Part shown: piece by piece, positions 7,961 to 64,000 of the stretch | Layout: each line of letters begins with the position of its first letter | Position numbering within the stretch: the first letter of the stretch is position 1 | NCBI GenBank assembly: GCA_943788725.1 | Contig: CALSRJ010000003.1 | Span: forward strand, 496,001-560,000 | Source of the DNA: an uncultured Flavobacteriales bacterium | GTDB lineage: Bacteria > Bacteroidota > Bacteroidia > Flavobacteriales_G > Salibacteraceae | DNA: 64,000 bases | Direction of reading: 5' to 3' | The notes under the pieces: model-generated | What the model saw: only the letters and a program-made list of their open reading frames with translations | Databases searched by the model: none | What the model was told of the DNA's origin: nothing | Program-made: the position numbers and the translations under genes

Positions 7961-10288
7961 CTACTTTAAGGCCCTATCGTTGAACAGGATATACCCAAAG
8001 TGGAAGATGAACGTAAGTGGAACCCGTTGTTCTCCCAAATTGTCTGAGCTGATCTCGGGTACGTTGAAGTAGTAGTTGACCGCGAAGCTCACGGGGCCGA
8101 TCGGACTGCGGTAGACGGCGTTGGCAGAGGCGATGGTGTATCTTTTTTCCAAGCTGCGCTTATCGTTTGGCGGTAAGCCCTCATCGTTGCGGTTCACCAC
8201 GAAGCGGTAGGGTTGAAATACATAGCCCTCCAAACGGAAGTCGACGTTCTTGTATACGTTGAAGATGAATTTATGTCCAAATGCAGCGTATTGATAAGCG
8301 CGAAAGGATTCCAAAAAGAGCGTCCTACTCTCCGGTGTGGGTTGGAATGCTGGAGAGCGAAGTGAGCTTGCCGTGTAATTGGTAAACAATTGCTGATCGC
8401 TGTACACCGCTTGAGCGTAAGCGCCCAGACGGATGGTCCCGTTGGATTTGTAGTAGACATCGTAGGTCAGCTTCGCGTCGATCCATTCTTGTTTGTTTTC
8501 AATGATCGTTTGCTCGGGTGATGTTGTTCCGGGAGAATACGTCTCTTCACCCGAAGTGTAGCGGATGGAGAGGTTGAGGAAAGAACCTTCGTTTGGATAG
8601 AGTTTGTCGTTCAGACTGTTCTTCTCGAAAGACGCGGTAGTGGTCGTTCCCTGAAACAAGGTTTTATCAGATATGTCGTCCTGCCCCCAACTGGGTGTCT
8701 GGTAGTAATCATCGCGCAATTGCACCAACCCTCCGGATAGGTTACACTTGATTTTATTACTCAAAGCAAAGGCCGCATTCAAATTAGCGAATTGCTCATT
8801 CTGAATCAGAAAGAGCGAGTTGTTGTCTTCAAAAAACGTAGCCCGACTGTTGAAGTAGTTCCATCGATTGATGGTGATCACAGGCTCGAGATAGATCGGA
8901 AACCGTATCGGCACGTCTATGCGCGCCTTGGCCAAGATGGAGGCGTAGAGCTTTCCGAAGTAGGCATTGGCGTGAAAGCTGGTCCCGGTGTTGTTGATGC
9001 TCGTATAGCCTATGCCGATGTACCCGGTATTGATGGGACGATTTGAAACATTTCCACCAAACTCAAGCACAAGATCCTTTTCTTTCTTAACGTTCAAAGT
9101 GAGTTTGTAAGCGCTGTCTGCTTCGTTATACTGGGAGTACGGAAAGAGGCGCTCGATTTTTTCATTTTCGTACACCCGGTAATACCCCTTCTTCAGTTCA
9201 TCGAACGACAGTCGCGCTCTTTTGCGTGGCTTTAAGATTCGGTTTACATAGTTGGCTTCTGGCTTTGTTAAACCTTCATAGGCATAGTCTGTGAAGACCA
9301 ATGGCTCTTTCTTTTTATTGAAGGCCATACGCGCCTCTTGCACGACTTTATGGTGCACGCGGCGGTGAACCGTCTGCTTGATCTCTTCCATACGTCTCAT
9401 GGAAGCTGCGTAGCCTGAATCTATGTTCTCTTGCAAGTGGTTGAAGTTGAACGTGCCATAATTCACTTCGGGTTCGATCATAATGGTAGAATCGCCTTCT
9501 AGGCCGTAGTCGGTCTTGCTCACCACCATGTTCCGTAGCTGGGAAAGGAAATCGTCTTCCATGGGAGGATCCTCGTTGGAAGAGACATTGCTGCCTATGA
9601 TTACATCGGGATGGAAGGTTTCGCGCAGAATGTTTGACGGGAAGTTGTTGTAGAGACCACCGTCGTACAAAAGCTTGCCATTCACCCGTATGGGCTTAAG
9701 GTAGGCTGGGTAGGTCATGCTCGCGCGAATCGCGATGTTGAGGTTGCCGTCCTTAAATAGCACGCTCTGTTTGTCTTCAATGTCAGAAGCCACGCATCGA
9801 AAAGGAACAAACAGACTGTCAAAATCGTAATGGCTCGCCTGACTAGCGGGATCGAACATGCGCATTAATTCTAGGTCCAAGGCGGCAGGATTGATAAAGC
9901 TAGTAGGAATAGAGGTTTCAAGGAAACTGGAAAGGGAAGTGAACTTAATATTGATCCAACTCGCGTTGGGCATCGGCTTGCGGAAGTAGTAGACGTATTT
10001 ATCGTCGATTTCACCTATTGAAACGCTCTGGAACTGCTCGCTGGTAAGCATTTTTTCAATCTCATTCGGACTGTATCCAGCCGCGTAAAGGCCTCCTGCG
10101 AAGGCCCCAATGGAAGTTCCAGTGATGTAATCAATCGGAATACCATTCTCTTCCAGTGCCTTCAAAACGCCCACGTGTGCCAAGCCCGACGCACCCCCTC
10201 CGCTCAGAACGACGCCAACTGACTGTCCGATCGCAGAGAGCGTAAACAAGGTTAAAAATGGCAGGATGAGCAGACGACCGAATCGCAT
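7961..10288 (-). CDS. Patatin-like phospholipase with C-terminal surface-antigen (BamA-type) barrel
   Basis: Secreted and outer-membrane protein of 775 residues. A signal peptide (about residues 1-21) is followed by a patatin domain carrying all three hallmarks: the glycine-rich oxyanion loop GGGASG (30-35), the nucleophile elbow GTSIG with Ser59, and the catalytic Asp of the DGG motif at residue 209. After about residue 330 a POTRA-like segment leads into a C-terminal beta-barrel region of roughly 400 residues. This fits the patatin-barrel (PlpD-like) family, in which a lipid acyl hydrolase is joined to its own Omp85-type barrel. The substrate is probably phospholipid, by family. It runs opposite to the rpo operon, and its stop is about 70 bp from the rpo terminator. 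Confidence 0.93.
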
Positions 10289-49050: not shown

Positions 49051-50292
49051 ATGACCCTGCGTGACCGCTTAGCGCAATTTGGACCAGGACTGCTCTATGC
49101 GGGAGCTGCCGTGGGGGTATCCCATTTGGTGCAGAGCACGCGGGCTGGAGCCGAATTTGGACTCCAACTCTTGGCGGTCATCATCCTGGTCAACGTCATC
49201 AAGTACCCCATCTTCGAAAGCGGACCTCGCTATGCCGCGGCTACAGGCAAGTCCCTCTTAGATGGCTACCAGCGCATTGGCAATTGGGCCGTGTGGGTTT
49301 ATATGGCAATGAGCATCATTACTATGTTCATTATCATGGGCGCGATTTCGATCGTAACCGCAGGGTTGTTCGCCCAACTCACCAGTCTCGACGTTGAAGC
49401 CCCTTTTGTGGCGGTGATCTTGCTGACCATTTCGGTGTTCGTCTTGGGATGGGGGCACTATTTCACCTTGGATCGCGTGATGAAGTTCATCATCATTCTG
49501 CTGACCTTTTCTACCGTATTGGCGCTATCCTTTTCTTGGATCGAGCCTACCATTCGCTCCGAGGAGTTCATGCGCGTCTTTGACATCGGAGAGCGCAAAG
49601 ACGTGCTTTTTTTGGTTGCCTTGATTGGCTGGATGCCTGCACCCATCGACATTGCGATCTGGCATTCGGTCTGGTCGGTTTCTAAAAACAAGGAGCAGGG
49701 TAAGCGTATTCCCATGCGGCAGGCCCTCACCGATTTCAAGGTGGGATACTGGGGAACTACCTTTTTGGCGGTTTGCTTTGTTGGGCTCGGTGCGGTTATC
49801 ATGTATGGCACGCCTGAATCCCCCGCTTCAGGTAGCGTAGCTTTTGCCGAACAGCTCATCAGAATGTACACGGCAAACTTGGGACATTGGGCATTTCCTT
49901 TCATCGCTTTGGCCGCCTTCACTACCATGTTCAGCACCTTGCTCACCTGCCTCGATGCCTTTCCACGCACCCTACGCAGATCCACGAAACTGGTCGTTCA
50001 TCACTTCGAAGACAAAAAATACCACAGCGGCTTGTATTGGTTCTGGCTGATCTTGACGGCGCTCGGAACCACGGTCATCCTGCTTTTCTTCTTTCGAGAC
50101 ATGCGTGCACTGGTAGACTTGGCTACTACGCTGTCTTTTGTGATTGCTCCCGTATTCGCCATCCTGAATTTTGTGGCCATGTACGATAAGGATGTTCCAG
50201 CCGAATCTAAACCTTCCGTTTGGATGAAACGTTTTAATATCGCATCCATCGTATTGCTATCAGGATTCAGCCTTTGGTATATACTCTATTGA
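49051..50292 (+). CDS. Nramp-related membrane transporter with non-canonical metal site
   Basis: 413 residues with about eleven membrane segments and the Nramp (SLC11) fold. The first segment begins FGPGLLYAGAA and ends RAGAEFGLQLL, which aligns without gaps to the classic TM1. However, the metal-binding motif DPGN is replaced by GVSH (residues 22-25). In TM6 the usual MPH motif reads MPAPIDIAIWHS. The transported ion is therefore uncertain; magnesium, aluminium or proton-only activity occurs in divergent Nramp relatives. It lies 3 bp after the transaldolase gene, and its stop overlaps the frame upstream of the next gene. Confidence 0.88.
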   Translation: MTLRDRLAQFGPGLLYAGAAVGVSHLVQSTRAGAEFGLQLLAVIILVNVIKYPIFESGPRYAAATGKSLLDGYQRIGNWAVWVYMAMSIITMFIIMGAISIVTAGLFAQLTSLDVEAPFVAVILLTISVFVLGWGHYFTLDRVMKFIIILLTFSTVLALSFSWIEPTIRSEEFMRVFDIGERKDVLFLVALIGWMPAPIDIAIWHSVWSVSKNKEQGKRIPMRQALTDFKVGYWGTTFLAVCFVGLGAVIMYGTPESPASGSVAFAEQLIRMYTANLGHWAFPFIALAAFTTMFSTLLTCLDAFPRTLRRSTKLVVHHFEDKKYHSGLYWFWLILTALGTTVILLFFFRDMRALVDLATTLSFVIAPVFAILNFVAMYDKDVPAESKPSVWMKRFNIASIVLLSGFSLWYILY

Positions 50293-50309
50293 CCTTTAAA
50301 GACCTTTCT

Positions 50310-52205
50310 ATGAGACAAATCGTACTTCTACTCACGCTCCTTCCTATGATCGGAATAGCTCAACAGAGCGTCACCGTCAAGCACATGAAGATCTCTGATC
50401 ATTGGACCGTAGATCCGCGTGCATTTCAGGAAGATTTTAGCGTCGAGCTGAAGAACATCGAACCACCGCTGCCTGGGGGTGATTTGAATCGAGAGGAGAT
50501 GCGGGCACTTAAACGTCGTATGAATGAGTTGTACCCGCGAACGACGTCATTGAGCTCAACACGAGGCGACAGATCTACCGATACGCTAACCATAGGTCAA
50601 AGCTTTCCTGCTGACTTCTTTTTGAACCAAGCGCCGATTGGCGGAGGCACCCCAAACGACAACACCCTCGCCATCTCCGACGATGGAAAATTGATTTCTT
50701 CATGGAATTCACAATTGTGGGCCTATGATATTGTGGCCGATACGTACTTGTTTGCCTATCCCAACATGCACCCCAGCTTCAATCAATTCCTGAACATTTA
50801 CAACGACACGGCCTTCAGTCTCTTCCAACCGTTTGATCCCAAACTGCTTTACGATCCGACCCGCCAGCGTTTCATCATGCTTTTTATGACCGGTCGCAAT
50901 CCGAGCAACAGCGCCACGATCGTTTCTTTTTCCACATCTACTGACCCCAAGGACCCCTGGCACGCTTACCGATTGCCCGGGAATCCGTTGACGTATGATA
51001 CTTGGAGTGACTATCCTCAAATCGCCATCAATGAGAACAGTTTTTACTTGACGCTGAATCAGCTCTATCCCGATTCCGGCTGGGTAGAAGGATTCGCGGA
51101 GACCTTGCTGTGGCAAATGGACCTGGACGAAGCCTTTGCAGGGGAGGAATCGGTCACTACCAAGCTATGGACGGGCTTCACCTATGAAGGAAAGAACATC
51201 CGCTATTTGCACCCTGTAAAAACGCACATGGGTCCACAAGGAGACTCCATGTACCTCGTAGCGAACCGCCCTTTTGTTGAGACCAACGACACGTTTTTCA
51301 TTGTGCGGGTGGAAGGTGATGCGGATGATCCGATTACAGCCGTGGATGTCAAAATGACCTCGGGAGGACTTCAATACGGACACCCACCTTATGCGAAACA
51401 GTCGGGCGGAAACCAGGAATTCTGGACGAACGATGCCCGTGTTTTGGGTGCTGTTCGTATGGGAAAGGAAATTCATATCACAGGAAATACCGTTGACTTC
51501 AATTCAGGAAAGGCGACCATCTACCATGGAAAAATTGCTGATGCAGAGGCACCGACGGTCGTGGGTACCATCATTTCAGATCCGGTGAAAGAATTAGGTT
51601 TTCCCAATTTGGATTTCATCGGCGTGACTCCTACAGATCGGGACGTCGTGATTTTCGCTAACCACACGGGTACAACCATTCACCCGGGCAATTCTGCGAT
51701 CTATATCGACCACGACGGGAATTATGGACCATTGCAAACGGTTGCAAAAGGAGAGACCTACGTAGACGGATTGCCATGGGCAGATGAACGTTGGGGCGAT
51801 TACACCGGTTTGCAGCGCAAGTTCAACGAAACGGCAGAAGTGTGGGTGGCTGGCTATTGGGGGTTCGCCTCCCAGCGGCCAGGTATTTACATCAGCCAGC
51901 TTCAGAGTCCTAAGCACGGTCCACTCAGTGTAGAGAATGAACCTGAGCAAGCGAGCATCACAATCTATCCGAATCCGACCATGGAATGGGTGCAATTTCA
52001 GTTTGACCTCGCGGGAAGCGTAGAGGGTGTCATTGAAATTCGCGACGTGCAGGGTCGGTATGTTGCCACCATCGGCAAAGGATTGATCAAGTCAGGAGCC
52101 AATCAACTTGGATTCGACGTTTCATCTCTCGCCGCGGGAACCTACGTAGTGCAGGTAAAGAGTGCAGAAGGCATTCATTTTACCGAGAAGTTCATCAAAC
52201 AGTAG
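50310..52205 (+). CDS. Secreted protein with T9SS type A sorting domain
   Basis: 631 residues from the ATG at 50310 (signal MRQIVLLLTLLPMIGIAQ); the frame opens upstream at 50274, inside the Nramp gene. The long middle (about 90-530) is beta-rich and contains propeller-like stretches (DNTLAISDDGKLISSWNSQL; KDPWHAYRLPG), but I recognise no enzyme motif. The C-terminal ~80 residues are the type A sorting domain: ITIYPNPTMEW (from 550), VQGRYVATIG and a final LAAGTYVVQVKS...EKFIKQ. It is exported by the type IX system. The function is unknown. Confidence 0.88.
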   Translation: MRQIVLLLTLLPMIGIAQQSVTVKHMKISDHWTVDPRAFQEDFSVELKNIEPPLPGGDLNREEMRALKRRMNELYPRTTSLSSTRGDRSTDTLTIGQSFPADFFLNQAPIGGGTPNDNTLAISDDGKLISSWNSQLWAYDIVADTYLFAYPNMHPSFNQFLNIYNDTAFSLFQPFDPKLLYDPTRQRFIMLFMTGRNPSNSATIVSFSTSTDPKDPWHAYRLPGNPLTYDTWSDYPQIAINENSFYLTLNQLYPDSGWVEGFAETLLWQMDLDEAFAGEESVTTKLWTGFTYEGKNIRYLHPVKTHMGPQGDSMYLVANRPFVETNDTFFIVRVEGDADDPITAVDVKMTSGGLQYGHPPYAKQSGGNQEFWTNDARVLGAVRMGKEIHITGNTVDFNSGKATIYHGKIADAEAPTVVGTIISDPVKELGFPNLDFIGVTPTDRDVVIFANHTGTTIHPGNSAIYIDHDGNYGPLQTVAKGETYVDGLPWADERWGDYTGLQRKFNETAEVWVAGYWGFASQRPGIYISQLQSPKHGPLSVENEPEQASITIYPNPTMEWVQFQFDLAGSVEGVIEIRDVQGRYVATIGKGLIKSGANQLGFDVSSLAAGTYVVQVKSAEGIHFTEKFIKQ

Positions 52206-52294: not shown

Positions 52295-54271
52295 ATGATC
52301 AGCATCAACAACATATCGGTCTCCTTTAGTGGGAATGACCTTTTCAAAGAAATTTCCCTCGTCATCAACGAGCGCGGCCGCATTGGTCTCGTCGGTAAGA
52401 ACGGGGTAGGGAAGAGTACCCTCTTGAAGATCATCCTGGGGTTGCAGCAGCCCGATGGCGGAGTTGTAGTCATCCCTGACGGGCGTACCGTTGGCTACCT
52501 GCCGCAGGAAATGCACTTCGAGGGCAAGGAAACGGTGTGGACCGAAACGTTGAAGGCGTATGCAGAGCTCAATTCCCTGAAAAATCGAGATGCAGAGATC
52601 CAAGTAGAACTTACTGAGCGAACCGACTACGAGAGCGACTCCTACCAAAAGATCATCGACGAGTTAGGCAACATCCACATGCGCCTCGAACTGATCGACG
52701 ACGGTAAATCCGAGCAAAAGACAGAGCAGGTTTTGTTGGGGTTGGGTTTTTCAAGGGAAGATTTTAAGCGCAAAATGTCTGAGTTCAGCGGAGGATGGCA
52801 GATGCGTGTGGAGTTGGCGAAACTGATCTTGATGCGACCTGATCTCTTGTTGCTCGATGAGCCGACCAACCACCTTGACATTGATTCCATCCTTTGGTTG
52901 GAGCAGTTCTTTCAAGAGTATCCAGGGGCGATCATGATGATCTCTCACGACCGAATGTTTTTGGACAACATTACCAACCGTACCGTAGAGATCATCAAGG
53001 GCAAGATTTACGATTACTCGGTAAGCTATTCCAAATTCTTCCAACTGCGGCAGGAGCGCATCGACCAGCAAAAGGCGGCCTATGACAACCAGCAGAAGTA
53101 CATCTCTCAGCAAGAGCGCTTCATTGAGCGCTTCAAGGCGAAGAATACCAAGGCCAAGCAAGCGCAGAGTAAAATGAAGCAGCTCGAGAAGTTGGATCGG
53201 GTGCACATCGATGAGACCGATGATTCGCGCATTCGTTTTCACTTCCCACCAGCACAAAGGTCTGGCGATGTCGTGCTCAAGGCGCGAGATTTGTCCAAGA
53301 CCTATGGAGACCACACGGTGTTTTCGGATGCTTCTTTCGACATTTTTCGGGGAGAACGCGTAGCCTTTGTCGGAAGAAACGGGCAGGGTAAATCTACCTT
53401 GGTCAAGCTCATCGTTGGCGATGAGAATGGCGAGGGTGAGTTGAAACTCGGACACAATGTTGAAGTGGGATACTACGCCCAGATTCAAGAAAAGACGCTT
53501 GATCCGGATGCGAACATTGAAGAGATCATACAACATGAAGCCACCGGAGACGATGCTAAAATTCATCGCGTAAGGGGCTTGTTAGGTGCCTTCCTCTTTG
53601 GACCAGACGACTACGGAAAGAAGGTGAAGGTGCTTTCAGGAGGGGAGAAGTCGCGCTTGGCGTTGGCGAAAATGCTCTTGAAGCAATGCAACCTGCTGAT
53701 TTTGGATGAGCCGACCAATCACTTAGACATCGGCGCGAAGGAGGTGTTGAAAGAAGCACTGCAAGCCTTTAAAGGAACCCTGATCTTGGTGAGTCACGAC
53801 CGAGAGTTCTTACAAGGATTGACCGACCGAACCTTTGAGTTCAAGGATGGAAGGGTAAAGGAGCATTTGGGCACCATTGATGACTTCCTTTCCAATTACC
53901 AAGTACAGAGTTTTAGAGAGTTTGAAGGAGCGAAAGCGAAGCCGAAACCAAAGACAGAGGAGACTAAAAAGGAAGTGGTCGCTTCAAAACCTGCTCAAAA
54001 CAGCGGATTGACCAACCAACAGCGCAAGGAAAAGGAGAAAGAGTGGAAGCGATTGAAGAACCAACTTTCGAACTTGGAACAACAAATTGAGGGGCAAGAA
54101 AAAGAGATGCGCGTACTCGAGGAAAAGATGGCGGATCCCACGGCAGCAAAGGATAGCCAAGATATTTTCTTTCAGCACGCCGAGCTTCAGCGGCAATTAG
54201 ACGACCATATGAAACGCTGGGAAAAGGCCGGCCAAGAGTTCGGTGTCCTCTCTCAATTGTTGGACCGATAG
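52295..54271 (+). CDS. ABC-F family ATPase (Uup/EttA-like)
   Basis: 658 residues with two ATP-binding domains and no membrane part. Walker A motifs: GKNGVGKST (34-42) and GRNGQGKST (360-368). Signatures: FSGGWQMRVELAKL and LSGGEKSRLALAKML. Both Walker B motifs read LLDEPTNHLDI or LILDEPTNHLDI. The linker between the domains is long and charged (QQKYISQQERFIERFKAKNT). The C-terminus (about 560-658) is a coiled coil, as in Uup. Such proteins act on ribosomes during translation or on DNA repair intermediates. The C-terminal coiled coil suggests the Uup branch. Confidence 0.93.
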   Translation: MISINNISVSFSGNDLFKEISLVINERGRIGLVGKNGVGKSTLLKIILGLQQPDGGVVVIPDGRTVGYLPQEMHFEGKETVWTETLKAYAELNSLKNRDAEIQVELTERTDYESDSYQKIIDELGNIHMRLELIDDGKSEQKTEQVLLGLGFSREDFKRKMSEFSGGWQMRVELAKLILMRPDLLLLDEPTNHLDIDSILWLEQFFQEYPGAIMMISHDRMFLDNITNRTVEIIKGKIYDYSVSYSKFFQLRQERIDQQKAAYDNQQKYISQQERFIERFKAKNTKAKQAQSKMKQLEKLDRVHIDETDDSRIRFHFPPAQRSGDVVLKARDLSKTYGDHTVFSDASFDIFRGERVAFVGRNGQGKSTLVKLIVGDENGEGELKLGHNVEVGYYAQIQEKTLDPDANIEEIIQHEATGDDAKIHRVRGLLGAFLFGPDDYGKKVKVLSGGEKSRLALAKMLLKQCNLLILDEPTNHLDIGAKEVLKEALQAFKGTLILVSHDREFLQGLTDRTFEFKDGRVKEHLGTIDDFLSNYQVQSFREFEGAKAKPKPKTEETKKEVVASKPAQNSGLTNQQRKEKEKEWKRLKNQLSNLEQQIEGQEKEMRVLEEKMADPTAAKDSQDIFFQHAELQRQLDDHMKRWEKAGQEFGVLSQLLDR

Positions 54272-54346
54272 TTTTCACCGAACATATCTTGAAAGTTCGT
54301 CGTATACCTCAGGCGACTTTTTCCATTTTCTCACGTCTTTTGTATT

Positions 54347-56824
54347 ATGCCACGCAGTTTACTCATCGCCTTGTTCTTGTTTCCCCTAGTAGCCTTTGGT
54401 CAAGGTCAAGCCGATTGGTGGTATTTCGGAAGCAATGCCGGCGTCCATTTTGAGTCGTCTGGACCTGTCGCCGTGAGCAATGGACAGCTCAGCACTTCCG
54501 AGGGTTGCGCTTCCATATCTGATCAAGCAGGAAATCTTTTGTTCTACACGGATGGCATCACGGTTTACGACAAGAACCACGTCGTAATGCCCAATGGTAC
54601 GGGGTTGTTGGGGAATTCTTCCTCTACCCATTCTGCGGTAATCATTCCTCGACCCGGAAGTCTAACCGATTACTACATCTTTACCGTGGATGATGGAGGA
54701 GCCTCTGGTGAGGGGATGTACTACTCATTGGTGGACATGACACTAAATTCGGGCGATGGCGATGTAGTTACAACAGAGAAGAACGTGTTTCTCGTGGATG
54801 ATACCAGCGAGAAAATCGCTGCGGTGAAGAAATCTAACGGCTATTGGGTGATCACCCATTTGGCCAGCACCCCCACCTATCAAGCCTACGAGATAACCGC
54901 ATCTGGAGTAAATACGACCCCGGTTGTATCGAATACGGCCTGGGCTACGGCCGGTTTTGGTTACGGCATCACGGCATCTTCCGATGGGCAGCAGATCGCT
55001 TCGGTCTATTTCGCTACGGACAGCATCCACTTGTACGATTTTGACGCTTCTACTGGTGCGGTAACAGGGAACTATAAGATTGGGTCTTCCATGGCCCAGG
55101 GATTGATGTACGGTTTGGAATTCTCTCCTAGTGGGGAGATTTTGTACATGCAAGCCTATGCCAATGGCGATGTGCGGCAATTTGATCTTACGCTGGGTTC
55201 CTCTGCGGCCGTCAGCGCCTCCGAAACCGTGATTGGTTCAGGTACAGGAGGAGGTCAGTTGCAAACTGGTCCAGATGGGTATATCTACTGCTCGCGTTAT
55301 GGAAACCTATTCCTTTCACGGATCAACGATCCAGATGTGGTAGGCGTTGGCTGTAATTGGGAGGATACCGCTGTTGTGCTCACCTTTACGGCTAGATGGG
55401 GACTCCCCACCTTTATACAATCCTTCTTCAACGTTGGTTTTACTGCAGAGGATCACTGCTTCGGCGATCCCTTTGCCTTTAGCTTAGATACGCTAGGGGT
55501 GGATTCCTTGCTCTGGAACTTTGGAGATCCTGCTTCGGGGACGAACGATACATCAACCACCTATTTCCCGACGCACACCTATTCCGATACCGGCACCTAT
55601 ACCGTTACGCTGATCGCTTGGGGTGACACGCTGGTAGACACCGCATACTCGACCATTTATGTGTATCCGCGCCAAACGCTGAACATCGGGCCTGCCGACA
55701 CCGGAATGTGCTTTGGTGATACGATCACCTTATACGCAACGCAAGCGTATTCCACTTACTTGTGGCAAGACAGTAGCACGGCTGATTCATTCAACGTGTA
55801 CCGCGATTCGTTGATATATGTCACCCTATTTGGTGTGTGCGATACCCTCACCGACACAATGCTTGTTCACTTTGATACGCTGGCCGTTTTCAACCTGCCG
55901 GAGGATACCACGTTTTGTGAAGGCAACGTGCTTTTCCTCGACGCAAACCTTCAGGTGACTGCGGATGTGTTTTGGAATACCGGGGATAGCGTAGATGCCA
56001 TTACCGTGACCCAGTCTGGATTCTATCAGATGAGCGCGGTGAACGGGTGTGGCTTGGTGACCGATTCTTTGAATGTGAACATTATTCCACGTCCCGATAG
56101 CGCTTTGTTGCCTCCTGATACCTTGAATTGCTTCGATTCACCCATCTATCTCGAGAGGCCATTGAACGATACGATCCAATGGGTTTGGTCAGACAGCAGC
56201 GACGTAGAGATATTTGAGGTGGATACAACCATGACCGTATGGTTGGCCGCTTTCAACCAGTGCGGTTTTTTGATCGATACCTTCACTGCGGTCTTTAACG
56301 GTGAGATCAAAACAGAATTGGGAGAGGATACCATCATTTGCGACGAAGACAGCATTCGCCTATTTGGAACGGATTCATTGGCTACCTATCTCTGGAATAC
56401 TGGAGATACAACGGATTCGATCTGGTCGATTCCCGGTGAAACAGAAAACTACATCGTCACCATCAAGTTGCGTGAATGCGAATTGGTAGAATCCCGAAGG
56501 GTATTCGCTACCGACACGGCTTGTCCTAATATTGATTGCGCCTTGCGCTACGGAAATATCTTTACGCCCAACGGAGATGGCTGGAACGATCGTTTCCGCA
56601 TCGACTCAGATTGTGACCTCTATAAATTCTCCATGGCGATCTTCAATCGTTGGGGGCAGTTGGTCCATGAGAGTTCCAATGTTGCCTACGGTTGGGACGG
56701 TTACATCAACGGAGAGCCGGCCTCCCAAGGCACGTATTATTTTACCGTTTTGTACAAGGATTTTGTAGTAGTCGATTCGGATCGATTCCTCACACAGGGC
56801 AGCTTTATGTTGATCCGTGAATGA
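54347..56824 (+). CDS. T9SS type B secreted protein, tandem copy 1
   Basis: 825 residues with an ATG start and signal MPRSLLIALFLFPLVAFGQ. Domains: N-terminal propeller-like region (about 20-365) opening ADWWYFGSNAGVHFESSGP and carrying LLFYTDGITVYD; a PKD domain (about 380-445: LLWNFGDPASG, YFPTHTYSDTGTYTV); three immunoglobulin-like segments, each with C, then YLWQDSS or WNTGD (about 450-725); and the gliding-motility-associated C-terminal domain (about 735-825: IFTPNGDGWNDRFRI, FNRWGQLVHESS, WDGYING, GTYYFTVLYKD). It is exported by the type IX system. It is 12 bp from copy 2 and has the same length as copies 2 and 3. Confidence 0.95.
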   Translation: MPRSLLIALFLFPLVAFGQGQADWWYFGSNAGVHFESSGPVAVSNGQLSTSEGCASISDQAGNLLFYTDGITVYDKNHVVMPNGTGLLGNSSSTHSAVIIPRPGSLTDYYIFTVDDGGASGEGMYYSLVDMTLNSGDGDVVTTEKNVFLVDDTSEKIAAVKKSNGYWVITHLASTPTYQAYEITASGVNTTPVVSNTAWATAGFGYGITASSDGQQIASVYFATDSIHLYDFDASTGAVTGNYKIGSSMAQGLMYGLEFSPSGEILYMQAYANGDVRQFDLTLGSSAAVSASETVIGSGTGGGQLQTGPDGYIYCSRYGNLFLSRINDPDVVGVGCNWEDTAVVLTFTARWGLPTFIQSFFNVGFTAEDHCFGDPFAFSLDTLGVDSLLWNFGDPASGTNDTSTTYFPTHTYSDTGTYTVTLIAWGDTLVDTAYSTIYVYPRQTLNIGPADTGMCFGDTITLYATQAYSTYLWQDSSTADSFNVYRDSLIYVTLFGVCDTLTDTMLVHFDTLAVFNLPEDTTFCEGNVLFLDANLQVTADVFWNTGDSVDAITVTQSGFYQMSAVNGCGLVTDSLNVNIIPRPDSALLPPDTLNCFDSPIYLERPLNDTIQWVWSDSSDVEIFEVDTTMTVWLAAFNQCGFLIDTFTAVFNGEIKTELGEDTIICDEDSIRLFGTDSLATYLWNTGDTTDSIWSIPGETENYIVTIKLRECELVESRRVFATDTACPNIDCALRYGNIFTPNGDGWNDRFRIDSDCDLYKFSMAIFNRWGQLVHESSNVAYGWDGYINGEPASQGTYYFTVLYKDFVVVDSDRFLTQGSFMLIRE

Positions 56825-56836
56825 TACCTTAGTACC

Positions 56837-59314
56837 GTGAAAAAATGCATACTACTTCTTTTCCTATTGCCCTCTTTGTTGCAGGCTCAGACGCCTGCGG
56901 ATTGGTGGTACTTTGGACAATATGCAGGTATGCATTTCACACCCACAGGCCCCGTTGCTGATACCAATGGTCAGCTTACGACCTTAGAAGGAGTCGCAAC
57001 GATTTCCAGCTCCAACGGCGATTTGCTGTTTTACTCCGATGGAAGTACGGTGTGGGATGCGAACCATGACATCATGCCGAATGGTACAGGGCTCAATGGT
57101 AATAGTTCTTCCTCCCAATCTGCGATTATTCTGAAACGTCCTGGTAGTACGACAGATTATTACGTTTTTACGGTTCAGAATAATGCACTTCCTCAAGGCA
57201 TGCAGTATTCGAGGGTTGACATGACGTTGAATGCAGGAATGGGAGACATCGATACCAATGAGAAGAACATTCCCATGGTGACACCTACAGCGGAGAAAAT
57301 CTCAGCCATTCCTAAACCAAATGGTTTTTGGGTGATCACCTTGAAACTCCCTGGAGATACTGTTTATGCTTTCGAAGTGACAAGTGCCGGAGTGAATCTG
57401 AACCCTGTCACCAGCAACACTGGGTTTACACTGACAACGGGAAATTTCCTCGGCTATCTCAAGCCAAACCTCCAAGGAGACCGACTAGCAGCCATCCACT
57501 ATCAAGTACCTGGGGTGTTTTTGTATGACTTCGACGCCAATACTGGAGTTGCCTCCAATGCCATGCAGCTGACAACCAGCATTACTTCAGGTTACGGCGT
57601 GGAGTTCTCTCCAAGTGGGGAGTATTTGTACGCGTCTAGTTATAGCACAGCGAATACAGTACAGTACGACCTTACGCTTGGCACAGCCGCGGCGATCAGC
57701 GCTTCCGAGACCCTGATCAGTTCTGGTGGATCAGGAGGGGGGACGATTCAGCTAGGACCGGATAATAAGATTTACAATGCACGCTGGAATCAAACCTATC
57801 TTTCACGGATCAATGATCCAGATCAACCTGGCGCACTCTGCAATTGGCAGGACACAGCCGTAGATCTGATGGGGAGAAGTTCTCAGATTGGTTTGCCCAC
57901 CTTTCTGCAGGCGTTTTTTAACATCTCCTTCAATGCTAACGATCATTGCTTAGGAGAAGAATACCAGTTTGTGATCGATACGGTCGGGGTAGATTCCATC
58001 TTCTGGAATTTCGGTGATCCTACCTCCGGCGCCAACGATACTTCATATGCATACTTCCCGAGCCATACGTTTACCGATACGGGTTCGTTCACGGTCATGC
58101 TGATTGCTAAATCAGATACGCTGATAGATACGGCGTATTCAACGCTTTTCGTTTACCCTCGCCAAACCTTGAACCTAGGTCCGGATACGACCCTCTGTGG
58201 CCCCGATACGGTGGTGCTGGATGTCAGTCAGGCCTTTTCGAGTTTCCTCTGGAGTGACAGTTCTAGTGCTGACTCGTTTTTGGTGACCTCAGACACGACG
58301 GTATGGGTACAGCTCAATGGCGTTTGCGATACCCTGCGCGATACCATTTCCATTCAATTCCAGTTCGTGCCGAATCTAAACTTAGGCCCTGATAGCACCT
58401 TTTGTGAAGGACTTTCACTTTCCTTGAATGCCGGGCTCAATGTTGAGGTCGCTTGGTCTTGGAATACGGGTGATTCAACGGAGACGATCGCGGTAAGTCA
58501 GACGGGCACCTACATTTTTGAAGCGACGAACGTGTGTGGAACGTTTGCAGATACGGTAGAGATAGAAGTGATACCGCTTCCAAGCGCAGATACCAATCTA
58601 CTCCCAGCAGATTCACTGCATTGCTTTGATGAAGGTTTCTTCATCCAACGCCCGCTGAATGATACCGTGGTCTTTATCTGGTCCGATTCCAGTTCTGACG
58701 AACGGTTCTTTGTGTATACTACAATGACGGTTTGGCTGGCAGCCTTCAACGAATGCGGCTTCAGTAGCGATACCATGCACATCACCTTCAACGGAGAGAT
58801 CAAGACCGAGCTCGGAGAGGATACGGTGATCTGCGACGAAGACAGCATCCGCCTATTTGGTACCGACTCGCTGGCCACGTATCTCTGGAATACAGGAGAT
58901 ACCACTGACACCATCACCACGCCAGTAGGAGCGAGCAAGAATTACATCGTCACCATCACCTTGCGCGATTGCCAGGCGATTGAGTCAAGAGAAGTGGTTT
59001 CCAGCGATACAGCATGTCCAGACATCGACTGCGACTTGCGTTATGGGAATGTCTTTACACCCAACGGCGATGGGTGGAACGACCGCTTCCGCATCGAATC
59101 GGATTGCGATATTTTCAAATTCTCCATGTCCATCTACAACCGCTGGGGACAATTGGTGCATGAAAGTTCAAACGTGGCCTATGGCTGGGATGGCTATGTG
59201 AATGGTGAACCGGCTTCAACGGGTACGTATTTCTTTACCGTACAGCACAAGGATTATGTGGTGGTCAACGCCGACCGTTTCCTTACCCACGGATCATTCA
59301 CGCTACTTCGATAA
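56837..59314 (+). CDS. T9SS type B secreted protein, tandem copy 2
   Basis: 825 residues; GTG start 12 bp after copy 1; signal MKKCILLLFLLPSLLQAQ. Same domain order as copy 1: DWWYFGQYAGMHF opening, PKD (IFWNFGDPTSGAND, FPSHTFTDTGSFTV, about 385-440), immunoglobulin-like segments beginning LGPDTTLC and LGPDSTFC, and a gliding-motility C-terminal domain. Its 58826-59210 segment is nearly identical in DNA to 61320-61704 of copy 3 and encodes the same protein sequence, while the rest has diverged. Confidence 0.95.
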   Translation: MKKCILLLFLLPSLLQAQTPADWWYFGQYAGMHFTPTGPVADTNGQLTTLEGVATISSSNGDLLFYSDGSTVWDANHDIMPNGTGLNGNSSSSQSAIILKRPGSTTDYYVFTVQNNALPQGMQYSRVDMTLNAGMGDIDTNEKNIPMVTPTAEKISAIPKPNGFWVITLKLPGDTVYAFEVTSAGVNLNPVTSNTGFTLTTGNFLGYLKPNLQGDRLAAIHYQVPGVFLYDFDANTGVASNAMQLTTSITSGYGVEFSPSGEYLYASSYSTANTVQYDLTLGTAAAISASETLISSGGSGGGTIQLGPDNKIYNARWNQTYLSRINDPDQPGALCNWQDTAVDLMGRSSQIGLPTFLQAFFNISFNANDHCLGEEYQFVIDTVGVDSIFWNFGDPTSGANDTSYAYFPSHTFTDTGSFTVMLIAKSDTLIDTAYSTLFVYPRQTLNLGPDTTLCGPDTVVLDVSQAFSSFLWSDSSSADSFLVTSDTTVWVQLNGVCDTLRDTISIQFQFVPNLNLGPDSTFCEGLSLSLNAGLNVEVAWSWNTGDSTETIAVSQTGTYIFEATNVCGTFADTVEIEVIPLPSADTNLLPADSLHCFDEGFFIQRPLNDTVVFIWSDSSSDERFFVYTTMTVWLAAFNECGFSSDTMHITFNGEIKTELGEDTVICDEDSIRLFGTDSLATYLWNTGDTTDTITTPVGASKNYIVTITLRDCQAIESREVVSSDTACPDIDCDLRYGNVFTPNGDGWNDRFRIESDCDIFKFSMSIYNRWGQLVHESSNVAYGWDGYVNGEPASTGTYFFTVQHKDYVVVNADRFLTHGSFTLLR
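58826..59210. repeat. Near-identical 385-bp tract shared with copy 3 (copy 2 side)
   Basis: Same length as 61320-61704, with about eight differences by eye, all at silent codon positions (for example CTA/TTA, TTT/TTC, GGG/GGA). It covers the last immunoglobulin-like segment and most of the sorting domain. Identity ends abruptly after GTGAATGGTGAAC. Confidence 0.85.
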
Positions 59315-59330
59315 GGCGTAAATTAGCGAA

Positions 59331-61808
59331 GTGAAAAGCCTTCTGACGTTTTTATTCTCCATGTTTTGGGTGGGCCTCTATGCTCAATCTCCCTCTGATT
59401 GGTGGTACTTCGGAGCAGAGGCAGGGGTGCATTTCACAACCACCGGCCCCGTTGCGGTGCTTGACGGAGTAATGACAACCCAAGAAGGCTGCGCCTCCGT
59501 ATCAAGCTCTGATGGAGACCTACTTTTCTATACCGATGGCACGGATGTGTGGGATGCGACGCATACGGTTATGCCCAACGGAGATAGTTTGCTAGGGAAC
59601 CTAAGCTCCACCCAATCTTCGGTCATCGTTCCCTATCCAGGTAGCTCAAATAAGTATGCGATCGTAACCGTGCGCGGTTGCACTGGCGGTAGCACTACCG
59701 GTCAAGCTGGGTACTACTTTGCCTATTCTGTGGTTGATATGACGCTGAACAGCGGCTTGGGTGATGTAATCCCTGCACAGAAGAACATCATTTTGATGGA
59801 TTCCGTTTCAGAGAAATGTACCGCCGTGCCACATGCGAATGGAACAGACCTATGGTTGATCGGACGCATGCAAGATTCTGCTAGGTACCATGCTTTTCGA
59901 CTTACGAGTAGTGGAGTGACACAGGAAGTGATCTCTCACATTGGTGTCCCTGGCTTATGTGTAGGCTATATGCTTGCTAATCACTCTGGAGATCGCCTAG
60001 TAGATGCTACCTATGGTGCTACCAACCCTAACCTTGTCTTTCATTTTGATCAGAGTTCGGGTGTACTCTACGACCCGGATTCTATTTACGTATCTACCGG
60101 AGGGATCTACGGTGTTCACTTTTCTCCCAATGATGAATTGGTCTATTTATCTGGAAGTGCAGGTATTAAACAATACGACCTCACTGCTGCCAATATACAA
60201 GCCTCGGAATACGATGTGTTTCAAGGTCAGACGTGGGCATTGGCCGAAGGGCCCGATGAGAAGATCTACGCGGCGCGCTACCAGACCTCTTATCTCGCAC
60301 GGATCAATGACCCCGATGTTGCCGGCGCGGGATGTAATTTTCAAGATTCAGCCGTGTATTTGGACGGGCGAATTTGTAGGATAGGGCTACCGAACCATGT
60401 GGGTGCAGGGGTGTTCAATATTGGTGTAATCCAAGCTTCGAATTTTTGCTTCGGAGACAGCACCTATTTCACTCTTGATACAGCCGGCTTAGATAGCATC
60501 CTATGGAACTTTGATGACCCTGGATCTGGTGGGTTGAATACCTCTACTTTGTTTTTTCCTGCACACTTCTATGCTGATACCGGTTCCTATACGGTCACTG
60601 TAATAGCCTACCGAGACACATTGATCGACACCGCTCAAACGAACATTTTTATTTATCCGAGGCAGACGCTTGATTTGGGGCCTGATTCTTTGCTGTGCTT
60701 TGGTGATACGGCACACCTCAATATTGACCAGCCCTATGCCTCCTTTGTATGGAGTGACTCCAGTGCATTGCCCGCATACGTGATCACGGACGATGAGACC
60801 GTTTGGGCAACCGTGTTAGGCGTTTGCGACACCATCAGCGATACCGTTCAATTTCAGTTCGACGATTCGATCCACTTTGAACTGGGACCTGATACCGCGT
60901 TTTGCGAGGGACAAAGCCTGCTGCTCGACGCTAATATTCAGGTCGCAGCTACCTATGGATGGAACACCGGTGATTCCTCCGATGCGATTGTAGTGAGTCA
61001 GACCGGGCTGTACGAATTGGTCGCCTTCAATGGCTGCGGTGAAGTACGAGACAGCATTGCGATAGAAGTGATTCCAAATCCCGATTCATCCTTGCTCCCG
61101 CCGGATACATTGAATTGTTTTGACACACCGATCTTTTTAACTCGTCCAGATAATGATACCATCACATGGCTGTGGTCAGACAGCACGGATGTGAAAGTGT
61201 TTGAAGTGGATACTACCATGACCATTTGGCTAGCAGCCTTTAATGAATGCGGATTCTTGCTGGATACATTCACCGCTGTCTTTAACGGGGAGATTCAAAC
61301 AGAATTAAGGGAAGACACTGTGATCTGCGACGAAGACAGCATCCGCTTATTCGGTACCGACTCGCTGGCCACGTATCTCTGGAATACAGGAGATACCACT
61401 GACACCATCACCACGCCAGTAGGAGCGAGCAAGAATTACATCGTCACCATCACCTTGCGCGATTGCCAGGCGATTGAGTCAAGAGAAGTGGTTTCCAGCG
61501 ATACAGCATGTCCAGACATCGATTGCGACTTGCGTTATGGAAATGTCTTTACACCCAACGGCGACGGCTGGAACGACCGTTTCCGAATCGAATCGGATTG
61601 CGATATTTTCAAATTCTCCATGTCCATCTACAACCGCTGGGGACAATTGGTGCATGAAAGTTCAAACGTGGCCTATGGCTGGGATGGCTATGTGAATGGT
61701 GAACTCGCTTCACCGGGAACCTACTTTTTTACGGTGGAGTACAAGGATTTCGTCGTGGTCGACTCAGATCGATTTGTAACGCAAGGAACGTTCTCCCTAC
61801 TGCGATAG
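59331..61808 (+). CDS. T9SS type B secreted protein, tandem copy 3
   Basis: 825 residues; GTG start 16 bp after copy 2; signal MKSLLTFLFSMFWVGLYAQ. Same order of domains as copies 1 and 2, with a more diverged N-terminal half: extra residues VRGCTGGSTTGQAGYYFAYS near 115-135, compensated by losses elsewhere, so the length stays 825. PKD at about 385-445 (LWNFDDPGSGG, FPAHFYADTGSYTV). It ends in a gliding-motility C-terminal domain (VFTPNGDGWNDRFRI) that lies mostly in the tract shared with copy 2. Confidence 0.95.
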   Translation: MKSLLTFLFSMFWVGLYAQSPSDWWYFGAEAGVHFTTTGPVAVLDGVMTTQEGCASVSSSDGDLLFYTDGTDVWDATHTVMPNGDSLLGNLSSTQSSVIVPYPGSSNKYAIVTVRGCTGGSTTGQAGYYFAYSVVDMTLNSGLGDVIPAQKNIILMDSVSEKCTAVPHANGTDLWLIGRMQDSARYHAFRLTSSGVTQEVISHIGVPGLCVGYMLANHSGDRLVDATYGATNPNLVFHFDQSSGVLYDPDSIYVSTGGIYGVHFSPNDELVYLSGSAGIKQYDLTAANIQASEYDVFQGQTWALAEGPDEKIYAARYQTSYLARINDPDVAGAGCNFQDSAVYLDGRICRIGLPNHVGAGVFNIGVIQASNFCFGDSTYFTLDTAGLDSILWNFDDPGSGGLNTSTLFFPAHFYADTGSYTVTVIAYRDTLIDTAQTNIFIYPRQTLDLGPDSLLCFGDTAHLNIDQPYASFVWSDSSALPAYVITDDETVWATVLGVCDTISDTVQFQFDDSIHFELGPDTAFCEGQSLLLDANIQVAATYGWNTGDSSDAIVVSQTGLYELVAFNGCGEVRDSIAIEVIPNPDSSLLPPDTLNCFDTPIFLTRPDNDTITWLWSDSTDVKVFEVDTTMTIWLAAFNECGFLLDTFTAVFNGEIQTELREDTVICDEDSIRLFGTDSLATYLWNTGDTTDTITTPVGASKNYIVTITLRDCQAIESREVVSSDTACPDIDCDLRYGNVFTPNGDGWNDRFRIESDCDIFKFSMSIYNRWGQLVHESSNVAYGWDGYVNGELASPGTYFFTVEYKDFVVVDSDRFVTQGTFSLLR
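61320..61704. repeat. Near-identical 385-bp tract shared with copy 2 (copy 3 side)
   Basis: Partner of 58826-59210. Left of it the genes differ (GELGEDTV-type context is TELREDTV here), and to the right LASPGTYFFTVEYKD replaces PASTGTYFFTVQHKD. The tract lies wholly inside the coding region. Confidence 0.85.
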
Positions 61809-61812
61809 CGGT

Positions 61813-61820
61813 TACTTTTG
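61813..61820 (+). promoter_or_regulatory. TAnnTTTG-like box before tandem copy 4
   Basis: TACTTTTG is a perfect TAnnTTTG match in the 16-bp gap between copies 3 and 4, only 4 bp before the GTG start. If used, the transcript would be leaderless. No matching box is seen before copies 2 and 3. Confidence 0.35.
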
Positions 61821-61824
61821 TGCC

Positions 61825-64000
61825 GTGACAAGAAGTTTACTTGGATTTCTATTGCTATTGGGTCAGCTATCGATGGCGCAATCGCCTGCGGATTGGTGGT
61901 ACTTTGGGCAAGGTGCTGGAGTGCACTTTGAACCGACAGGCCCGGTCGCAGACACAAATGGACAGACATACACCTTCGAGGGATGCACGAGTATTTCTGA
62001 CAACGACGGAAACCTCCTCTTCTACACAGATGGCTCTACCGTATGGAATAAAATCCACCAGATCATGCCTAACGGCACCGGGTTACTGGGAAATGCCTCT
62101 TCGAGCCAATCGGCCATCATCGTTCCTCGCCCTGGCGTGCCGAGCAACTATTACATCTTCACTGTTCCTGTATCAGGGACCATTGGCATGCGTTATTCCT
62201 TGGTCGACTTAGATTTACAAGGTGGATTGGGTGACGTTGATACCGTAGAAAAGAACATTCTCTTGACCTTGAATACGGGCGAGAATGTATGCGCCCTCGC
62301 ACACGGCAACGGCAATGGGTATTGGGTGGCTTCGCACATCCGGTATTCCGACACCATCAAGGCATTTGAAATCACCGGTGCTGGAGTCAACACAACGCCG
62401 GTCATTTCCACTACTGGCGATAGCATCGAGGCGTTTGTAGGGTGCATTAAGGCTTCCCCTAATTCAAAATACATTGGACTGGCAAAGCAGACCTTTGGAT
62501 TCACCTTCCCTTCTGGACGCATCTCCTTGATGAAGTTCAACAATAACACAGGAGAGGTGGTTGATCACATCATGTGGTCAAGTCCGTTCGTCACAGGTCC
62601 ATACGGCGTTGAGTTCAGTCCAAACAGCGACGTCATGTACATCTCCGATGGATGGGGAGCGCAATTAAGGGCCTTGGTGCAATACGACATATCTTCCTTT
62701 GATTCGATTCCGATCGTTACGTCAGAATACCTTGTTGCGGATTCCGTATCGTTTGGTCAAGTGCAACTCGGTCCCGACGAGCGCATCTATTTGACAACAA
62801 GCATTGGTCAGGGACTTGGGTTAGATTCCTTTTTACATCGAATCAATGAACCCAATGTGCTTGGGGTAGGCTGTAGCTGGGAGCCGTTTGCGGTGTATCT
62901 CGAAGGAAGAAGGGCGACCATGGGATTACCGCCATTTTTGTCCTCCATCTTCAATGTGACCTTTGAAGTAGAGAACCTGTGCTTGTTTGATACGGTGCTT
63001 TTCATCCCAGATACGGCAGATGTGGATAGCATGTGGTGGAATTTTGGGGATCCAGGTTCGGGTGGATTGAATACATCTACTGCGTTCTTTCCAAGTCACT
63101 ACTACGCCGATACAGGGAGCTACACGGTCGAGCTGATTGCTCAGTCAGACACGGTTTTTGATACGCTTCAGCTGAACATCTACATCTATCCTCGCCAGTC
63201 CTTGGATCTGGGGCCCGACACCACGTTGTGTTTTGGCGACACCTTAGTGTTGGACGCTTCTGATTTGTTTTCTACCTACCTGTGGAGCGACAGCTCAACC
63301 GCGGATTCTTTTGCTGTCTTTGGAGATTCGATGGTGTACGTAACCCTATTCGGGGTATGCGATACCTTGAGCGATACGATTCGAGTTGACTTTGATACGT
63401 TGGCGACGTTTGATCTAGGGCCGGACACTACTTTTTGCGAGCCGAATACCATGGTCTTGAATCCCGGACTAAATGTAGGTGCATTGGCATACTGGAATAC
63501 AGGCGACACGGTTGACTCGACCGACCTGCTTCTGGTAACCCAATCGGGGCAGTATATTTTGGTGGCTGAAAACGTATGCGGAAATGTGTCGGATACCGTG
63601 GAGGTTTTTATCACTCCGCTTCCTGACAGCGCATTACTGCCACCAGACACACTGAATTGTTTTGATAACGCGATTTTCTTGACGCGTCCTATCAATGACA
63701 CGGTTACCTATATCTGGAGTGATTCGAGCAGTGAGGAGATTTTTGAGATCGACACTACCATGACCATTTGGTTGGCTGCGTTCAATGAATGTGGTATAAA
63801 CATCGACACGTTCACGGCGATCTTCAATGGCGAGATCAAGACAGAGTTAGGTGAAGACACGATAATCTGTGATGAGGATAGCATTCAACTCTTCGGCACA
63901 GATTCGCTGGCGACTTACGTATGGAACACAGGAGATACAACCGATACCATTGTTACGCCTGAAGGGGAGAGCAAGAACTACATCGTGACCATCACCCTTC
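61825..64000 (+). CDS. T9SS type B secreted protein, tandem copy 4, cut by the window end
   Basis: GTG at 61825, 16 bp after copy 3, opens a frame that stays open to the last base (725 codons). Signal MTRSLLGFLLLLGQLSMAQ. It continues SPADWWYFGQGAGVHFEPTG with the same order of domains as copies 1-3: LLFYTDGSTVW, PKD (MWWNFGDPGSGG, FPSHYYADTGSYTV), immunoglobulin-like segments LGPDTTLC and LGPDTTFC, and then GEDTIICDEDSIQLFG. The gliding-motility C-terminal domain is expected beyond the window. At the 3' end the DNA differs from copies 2 and 3, so it is not part of their shared tract. Confidence 0.93.
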   Translation, partial: MTRSLLGFLLLLGQLSMAQSPADWWYFGQGAGVHFEPTGPVADTNGQTYTFEGCTSISDNDGNLLFYTDGSTVWNKIHQIMPNGTGLLGNASSSQSAIIVPRPGVPSNYYIFTVPVSGTIGMRYSLVDLDLQGGLGDVDTVEKNILLTLNTGENVCALAHGNGNGYWVASHIRYSDTIKAFEITGAGVNTTPVISTTGDSIEAFVGCIKASPNSKYIGLAKQTFGFTFPSGRISLMKFNNNTGEVVDHIMWSSPFVTGPYGVEFSPNSDVMYISDGWGAQLRALVQYDISSFDSIPIVTSEYLVADSVSFGQVQLGPDERIYLTTSIGQGLGLDSFLHRINEPNVLGVGCSWEPFAVYLEGRRATMGLPPFLSSIFNVTFEVENLCLFDTVLFIPDTADVDSMWWNFGDPGSGGLNTSTAFFPSHYYADTGSYTVELIAQSDTVFDTLQLNIYIYPRQSLDLGPDTTLCFGDTLVLDASDLFSTYLWSDSSTADSFAVFGDSMVYVTLFGVCDTLSDTIRVDFDTLATFDLGPDTTFCEPNTMVLNPGLNVGALAYWNTGDTVDSTDLLLVTQSGQYILVAENVCGNVSDTVEVFITPLPDSALLPPDTLNCFDNAIFLTRPINDTVTYIWSDSSSEEIFEIDTTMTIWLAAFNECGINIDTFTAIFNGEIKTELGEDTIICDEDSIQLFGTDSLATYVWNTGDTTDTIVTPEGESKNYIVTITL

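Follow-up and report, generated by a model that had tools for sequence, protein, structure and literature searches.

The window, by which we mean the whole stretch of 64,000 nucleotides that was analysed, from a contig of an uncultured bacterium of the Flavobacteriales (Salibacteraceae), closes with a tandem array of paralogous genes, all on the forward strand, for T9SS type B surface proteins. Copy 1 (54347..56824; head type C) starts with ATG and is preceded by a leader, while copy 2 (56837..59314; head type D), copy 3 (59331..61808; head type B) and copy 4 (from 61825 to the window edge at 64000; head type A) start with GTG. The first three copies measure 2478 bp each, corresponding to 825 codons and a protein of 825 aa, and successive copies are separated by gaps of 12, 16 and 16 bp; the open reading frames bear out everything that an earlier note on this DNA had read in this respect. 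The same note had asked where copy 4 ends and whether other copies follow. In the whole genome the stop of copy 4 falls at window-equivalent position 64350, 350 bp past the window, giving a protein of 841 aa, and this copy is the final one of the array.

The array has a stable genomic context. On its left lies a gene for an ABC-F type ATPase (52295..54271, forward strand), conserved in those genomes of the genus in which the locus is intact; on its right are found, in most genomes, a convergent lipoprotein-like gene and then PspC, and this gene order is maintained across the genus as well as in G015, which belongs to another genus. Copy 4 abuts the lipoprotein-like gene with 0 bp between the two stop codons (L049:12351-12352), and the convergence is kept in several relatives. 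A gene at 50274-52205, immediately before the ABC-F gene, encodes a T9SS type A protein (Por_Secre_tail), which places cargo genes of types A and B near one another at this locus. The comparison included one genome per species, and the relatives are draft MAGs of uncultured Flavobacteriales or Salibacteraceae; in what follows, G000 is the genome of the window, G008 that of a near sister species, and a number after the genome name indicates the copy. The contigs of G001 and G009 end inside or beside the array (L100, L101, L102, L060), as would be expected if homogenised tails defeat short-read assembly, and the frameshifts and Ns found in G006 may be assembly errors.

From the N-terminus onwards, copies 1-3 consist of a signal-peptide-like segment, a region without Pfam domains, a PKD domain, stretches modelled as Ig-like and, at the C-terminus, a T9SS type B domain. 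The latter is recognised by both TIGR04131 ('T9SS type B sorting'; 60.5-62.0 bits, with a cut-off of 35) and PF13585 (CHU_C; 64-65 bits, with a cut-off of 27). Copy 4 aligns with the other three throughout, including its C-terminus, which is beyond the window edge and was read from the genome. A basic/hydrophobic N-terminus followed by a Q-x-x-A-D-like motif can be recognised by eye in all copies, and a helix is predicted at the N-terminus in the model of copy 1. The head of this copy (aa 23-365; 54413..55441, forward strand) is confidently modelled as a beta-propeller (pLDDT 89.9, pTM 0.90), presumably with seven blades as in the fold family that it matches. Several propellers were matched by the full-length model with Z values of 22-24, among them a lactonase-like propeller (Z 23.8, about 10% identity); Foldseek searches with the head alone gave TM values of about 0.4-0.55, too low for a superfamily assignment. 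The fold of the stalk resembles Ig chains, such as those of the surface protein GhpA of Aureispira. A comparable order of domains, a propeller followed by PKD, is found in an extracellular archaeal YVTN beta-propeller protein (PDB 1l0q), whose fold match (Z 23.7) comes with a high rmsd, as two domains were aligned, and whose sequence match is confined to the PKD region; unlike the array proteins, however, it is a protein of the archaeal S-layer and has no T9SS tail. According to the models, the architecture is that of a head on a stalk, with a putative signal peptide, a beta-propeller head, a stalk of PKD and Ig-like domains and a type B secretion tail, the tail of copy 1 (aa 656-825; 56312..56824, forward strand) having the CHU_C/type B secretion signal within it. 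Each head most likely has an extracellular ligand of its own, which could be a glycan, a polymer or a partner surface.

In spite of their shortness, the gaps between the copies hold sequences resembling promoters. Two -7-like boxes, TACCTTAG (56825..56832) and TAAATTAG (59319..59326), and a -7 box, TACTTTTG (61813..61820), all on the forward strand, stand 4 nt before the GTG of copies 2, 3 and 4, respectively. A TAnnTTNG box at exactly this distance is present at all three junctions of G000 and at all three of G008, although two of the three G000 boxes have TTAG in place of the consensus TTTG. The single junctions of G011, G007 and G003 also show the box at 4 nt, and in G015 it is found at 6 and 4 nt; the junctions of G004, G010 and G006 are longer, with any boxes located further upstream. 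In 464 kb of the G000 genome, sampled as stretches, a peak of TAnnTTTG/TTNG boxes is seen 4-6 nt ahead of start codons and not ahead of internal ATG or GTG codons; about 20 of the 353 genes in this sample have such a box at that distance and would probably give leaderless mRNAs. In F. johnsoniae, transcription starts 4-5 nt after a box of this kind, and 87% of the predicted leaders exceed 10 nt (PMC6847099). Given this spacing, the position of the boxes suggests that copies 2-4 are probably each transcribed from a minimal promoter of their own, contained in the gap, as a leaderless mRNA starting at the GTG. The short gaps could be read simply as the sign of an operon, which is doubtful since they hold promoter boxes. 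In G015, the promoter box of a copy shares bases with the TAG stop of the copy before it, TAGCTTCG (L058:7651-7663, 10131-10141). As for the leader of copy 1, two motifs common to many species, GGCGAC... and CGTCT(TTTG), occur upstream of the first start codon of the array (54300-54346 in the window, as well as L050, L054-L057, L051, L052 and L058). The CGTCT motif is not enriched genome-wide (9 genes against 10.3 expected), which indicates that it is specific to the array.

The alignment domain by domain, which the earlier note had recommended, revealed that heads and tails have different histories. In the tree of the heads (aa 23-365) the copies cluster by head type across species, that of copy 1 included, whereas the tree of the tails (aa 656-824) is arranged mostly by genome or by species pair or group, the tail of copy 1 clustering with those of its own genome and not with the same head type elsewhere. 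Mapping the genome labels required 24 changes on the head tree (minimum 10; shuffled mean 22.1) and 15 on the tail tree, where none of 200 shuffles was as low. In AU tests, whose groups were named after the trees had been seen, a single-genome clade was rejected for the heads of G004, of G010 and of G000 plus G008 (p below 1e-34), and a head-type clade was rejected for the tails (p 2e-10 and 2e-25). The same conflict is evident from pairwise identities: G000_1 and G004_1 are 73% identical in the head and 53% in CHU_C, while the four copies of G000 have among themselves a mean identity of 48% in the head and 85% in CHU_C. The main groups in the tail tree correspond to the ones that the adjacent ABC-F gene forms. 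Heads belong to old and distinct types under functional constraint, which recur in different species and can be exchanged or lost whole; gene conversion between neighbours homogenises the tails, as well as most of the stalk in some species, and these parts undergo concerted evolution. This process is not universal, since in the two-copy arrays (G011, G007 and G003) the tails are unhomogenised (56-64%) and each retains its own orthology. In G000 and G008, moreover, the tails still sort by numbered copy in the tree, so that homogenisation in this pair must mostly predate the split of the two species.

At least one event is more recent. A segment of 170 bp in copy 2 (58859..59028), the core of a recent conversion tract, is exactly shared with copy 3 (61353..61522), the recipient side, both on the forward strand. 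The whole tract extends over about aa 660-785, where the DNA of copies 2 and 3 is 93-100% identical in G000, as compared with 33-74% elsewhere; over the same region, the G008 copies are 77-92% identical. Between aa 691 and 720, orthology is supported by none of the sites, and at 16 of them G008_3 is the only one to differ, a pattern that identifies copy 2 as the donor and copy 3 as the recipient of a conversion that followed the G000/G008 split. A run test on synonymous codons, applied to 28 pairs with P values that refer to each single pair, found 55 consecutive identical codons between copies 2 and 3 of G000 (P 2e-4). All pairs of G010 and two pairs of G004 were significant (P at most 0.001), and a weaker signal was obtained for copies 2 and 3 of G008 (P 0.002) and copies 1 and 3 of G015 (P 0.006). 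No tract was detected by this test within any head in the 28 pairs, all of them being in tails or stalks. Grouping of paralogs by genome together with long tracts of identical synonymous codons, the signs of concerted evolution, were found only in the tails, and not in two-copy arrays. The repeated recombination that had been suggested in the earlier note is therefore present and acts on the tails, but it is not the source of the equal lengths of the copies. Gene conversion or concerted evolution had no earlier description for T9SS type B proteins in the literature searched. In tandem multigene families under partial gene conversion, one part is likewise homogenised while another has diverged among tandem paralogs; unlike in such families in general, here the homogenised part is the secretion signal.

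From a functional perspective, the shuttles that recognise type B tails are PorP/SprF-like proteins, which also anchor the cargo (PMC9143113, PMC12618676). According to the latter report, these tails need cognate SprF-like shuttles, crosstalk tracks the similarity of the tails, and one shuttle is common to three orphan tails of F. johnsoniae (PMC12618676). The genome of the window encodes 12 PorP/SprF proteins, and no PorP/SprF gene was found within 45 kb of the array. In G015, an outer-membrane gene near the array was considered as a possible adjacent shuttle and rejected, as it matches DUF3575 and not PorP; a gene similar to it in G010 is without Pfam match. The orphan substrates Fjoh_1123, Fjoh_1720 and Fjoh_4934 offer a close parallel: they likewise have a C-terminal signal of type B, lack a PorP/SprF gene next to them and, like the array, comprise several cargoes for one presumed partner (PMC12618676). 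They differ from the array in that they are not in tandem, judging from their locus numbers, in that the accessible part of the report describes no gene conversion for them, and in that the shared shuttle is experimental for them and presumed for the array (PMC12618676).

Taken together, these data make it likely, in our judgement, that the array is a tandem T9SS type B repertoire with distinct heads under constraint, tails homogenised for shared secretion, leaderless cassettes and a tie in length that has no function. All copies would be read by the same secretion partner, and this would be the reason why homogenisation of the tails is kept; the partner would probably be one unlinked ('orphan') shuttle of the PorP/SprF type, which would also anchor the copies. 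The homologous tails would act as recombination sites at which heads are added, deleted or exchanged, and each gene would be, as far as can be judged from the sequence, a self-contained cassette with its own promoter. The most economical reading is that one orphan shuttle would serve every copy, with conversion keeping the tails uniform and the heads staying different. There is an appreciable chance, although below even, that conversion is instead driven by proximity and has no function, tandem tails staying alike enough to recombine with no need of a shared partner. This would fit with the fact that homogenised tails are seen among tandem neighbours only, with no CHU_C elsewhere in the genome exceeding 46% identity to that of copy 1, and also with the state of the two-copy arrays; however, the heads are equally close in space and yet diverge, and tail-specific shuttles are documented in F. 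johnsoniae (PMC12618676).

A turnover of the heads is observed between species. G003_1 and G011_1 agree in the leader, in the first part of the signal peptide and in the stretch of tail that follows aa ~590 (tail 77-87% identical), but they are only 17-57% identical between aa ~135 and 345, where the head of G003_1 matches G000_4 and G006_4 instead; this pattern points to a replacement of the head, with the leader before it and the tail after it conserved. Furthermore, an unrelated head, 'NLVKNGGFD', is joined to a tail of the array type in the first array gene of G010 and of G006 (L052:2842-4947; L051:2483-4543). G010 also possesses a second, unlinked tandem array of larger proteins (L108:4337-14212), in which two propeller heads flank one 'NLVSNQSLE' head. 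The comparison of copy numbers, which had been proposed between strains, was made between related species with one genome each, and the number is not fixed, being 2, 3, 4 or about 6. The earlier proposal of a set of variable surface proteins is only half right, in the sense of a repertoire of differing heads with turnover between species. In the sense of antigenic or phase variation, with a store of heads rapidly reshuffled within a lineage under diversifying selection, it is improbable. It is true that the copies have very different heads (48% identity) and that a swap can be seen between species, but orthologous heads of G000 and G008 have a dN/dS of 0.02-0.04 (a rough ratio, as synonymous divergence is near 1), denoting strong conservation that is far from diversifying selection, and antigenic variation was rejected on the basis of this value and of the location of the conversion tracts. 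Besides, there are no silent or truncated cassettes beside the G000 array, and every copy has its own start signals. The sequences thus favour a stable repertoire of surface heads over antigenic variation.

The equal length of copies 1-3 was the feature that had first drawn attention to the array, and it had been ascribed to insertions and losses that cancel. Each pairwise alignment has 9-16 indels, which sum to zero. Stop codons upstream limit the choice of start in copies 2 and 3, whose open frames are 829 and 828, and the equality of these two copies is thus not an artefact of choosing a far start. The exact tie depends, nevertheless, on a signal peptide one residue shorter in copy 2 and on an extra last Glu in copy 1; counting from the conserved DWWYFG motif at the mature start gives 803, 804 and 803. 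The copies of G008 have the same lengths as those of G000 (825, 825, 825 and 841 aa), so the tie is one inherited state that has not arisen anew. Full copies in the relatives vary between 820 and 844 aa (SD 7.3 aa, 21 copies), and the chance that at least three of four random copies from this pool are equal is 0.005-0.027, about 0.5-3% per array. According to the earlier note, unequal copy lengths and a fixed copy number in related genomes would reduce the equality to chance: the lengths are unequal, whereas the number is not fixed. Selection on exact protein length or architecture, holding the copies at 825 aa, is very unlikely; the three-way tie in both G000 and G008 despite many indels, and the narrow range of all full copies, speak in its favour, but it is already largely refuted by the unequal copies in the syntenic arrays of the relatives, and the mature lengths and the single inherited origin of the tie weigh against it too. 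The tie is most likely a coincidence, without function, in a family of naturally narrow length. Even harder to credit is the proposal that there was no gene conversion at all and that tails are simply more constrained than heads, their differences being those of old duplications: synonymous sites are indeed saturated in many tail pairs, as in old duplicates, but from one species to another the tails show lower conservation than the heads (G000_1/G004_1), contrary to what stronger constraint would give, long runs of identical synonymous codons are confined to tails and stalks, and both the AU tests on the tails and the tract between copies 2 and 3 of G000 contradict it.

The array has a partial counterpart in the gingipain/HagA adhesins of Porphyromonas gingivalis, which are likewise T9SS surface proteins with modular domain exchange by recombination and with allelic exchange (PMC5266723). 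In that case, however, the modules are adhesins and are discussed in terms of strain variation in a host-associated pathogen (PMC5266723), while in the array the propeller heads are conserved and the tails converted. More tentatively, and with somewhat less than an even chance of being right, the array may be an expandable toolkit, made of leaderless cassettes in which exchangeable propeller or other heads are mounted on one species-specific secretion tag, kept uniform by conversion and served by one shuttle that displays them all; if this is true, a new head acquired through recombination in the tail would be secretable at once. The very short gaps appear to contain complete leaderless promoters. 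The array offers a clean natural case in which a secretion signal evolves in concert within an array and the functional heads do not, and it illustrates the ways in which heads can be gained, lost and exchanged between species in T9SS surface repertoires. Finally, it allows a test of the idea that the evolution of type B tails is coupled to that of a shared shuttle, and that their homogenisation would keep new heads exportable.
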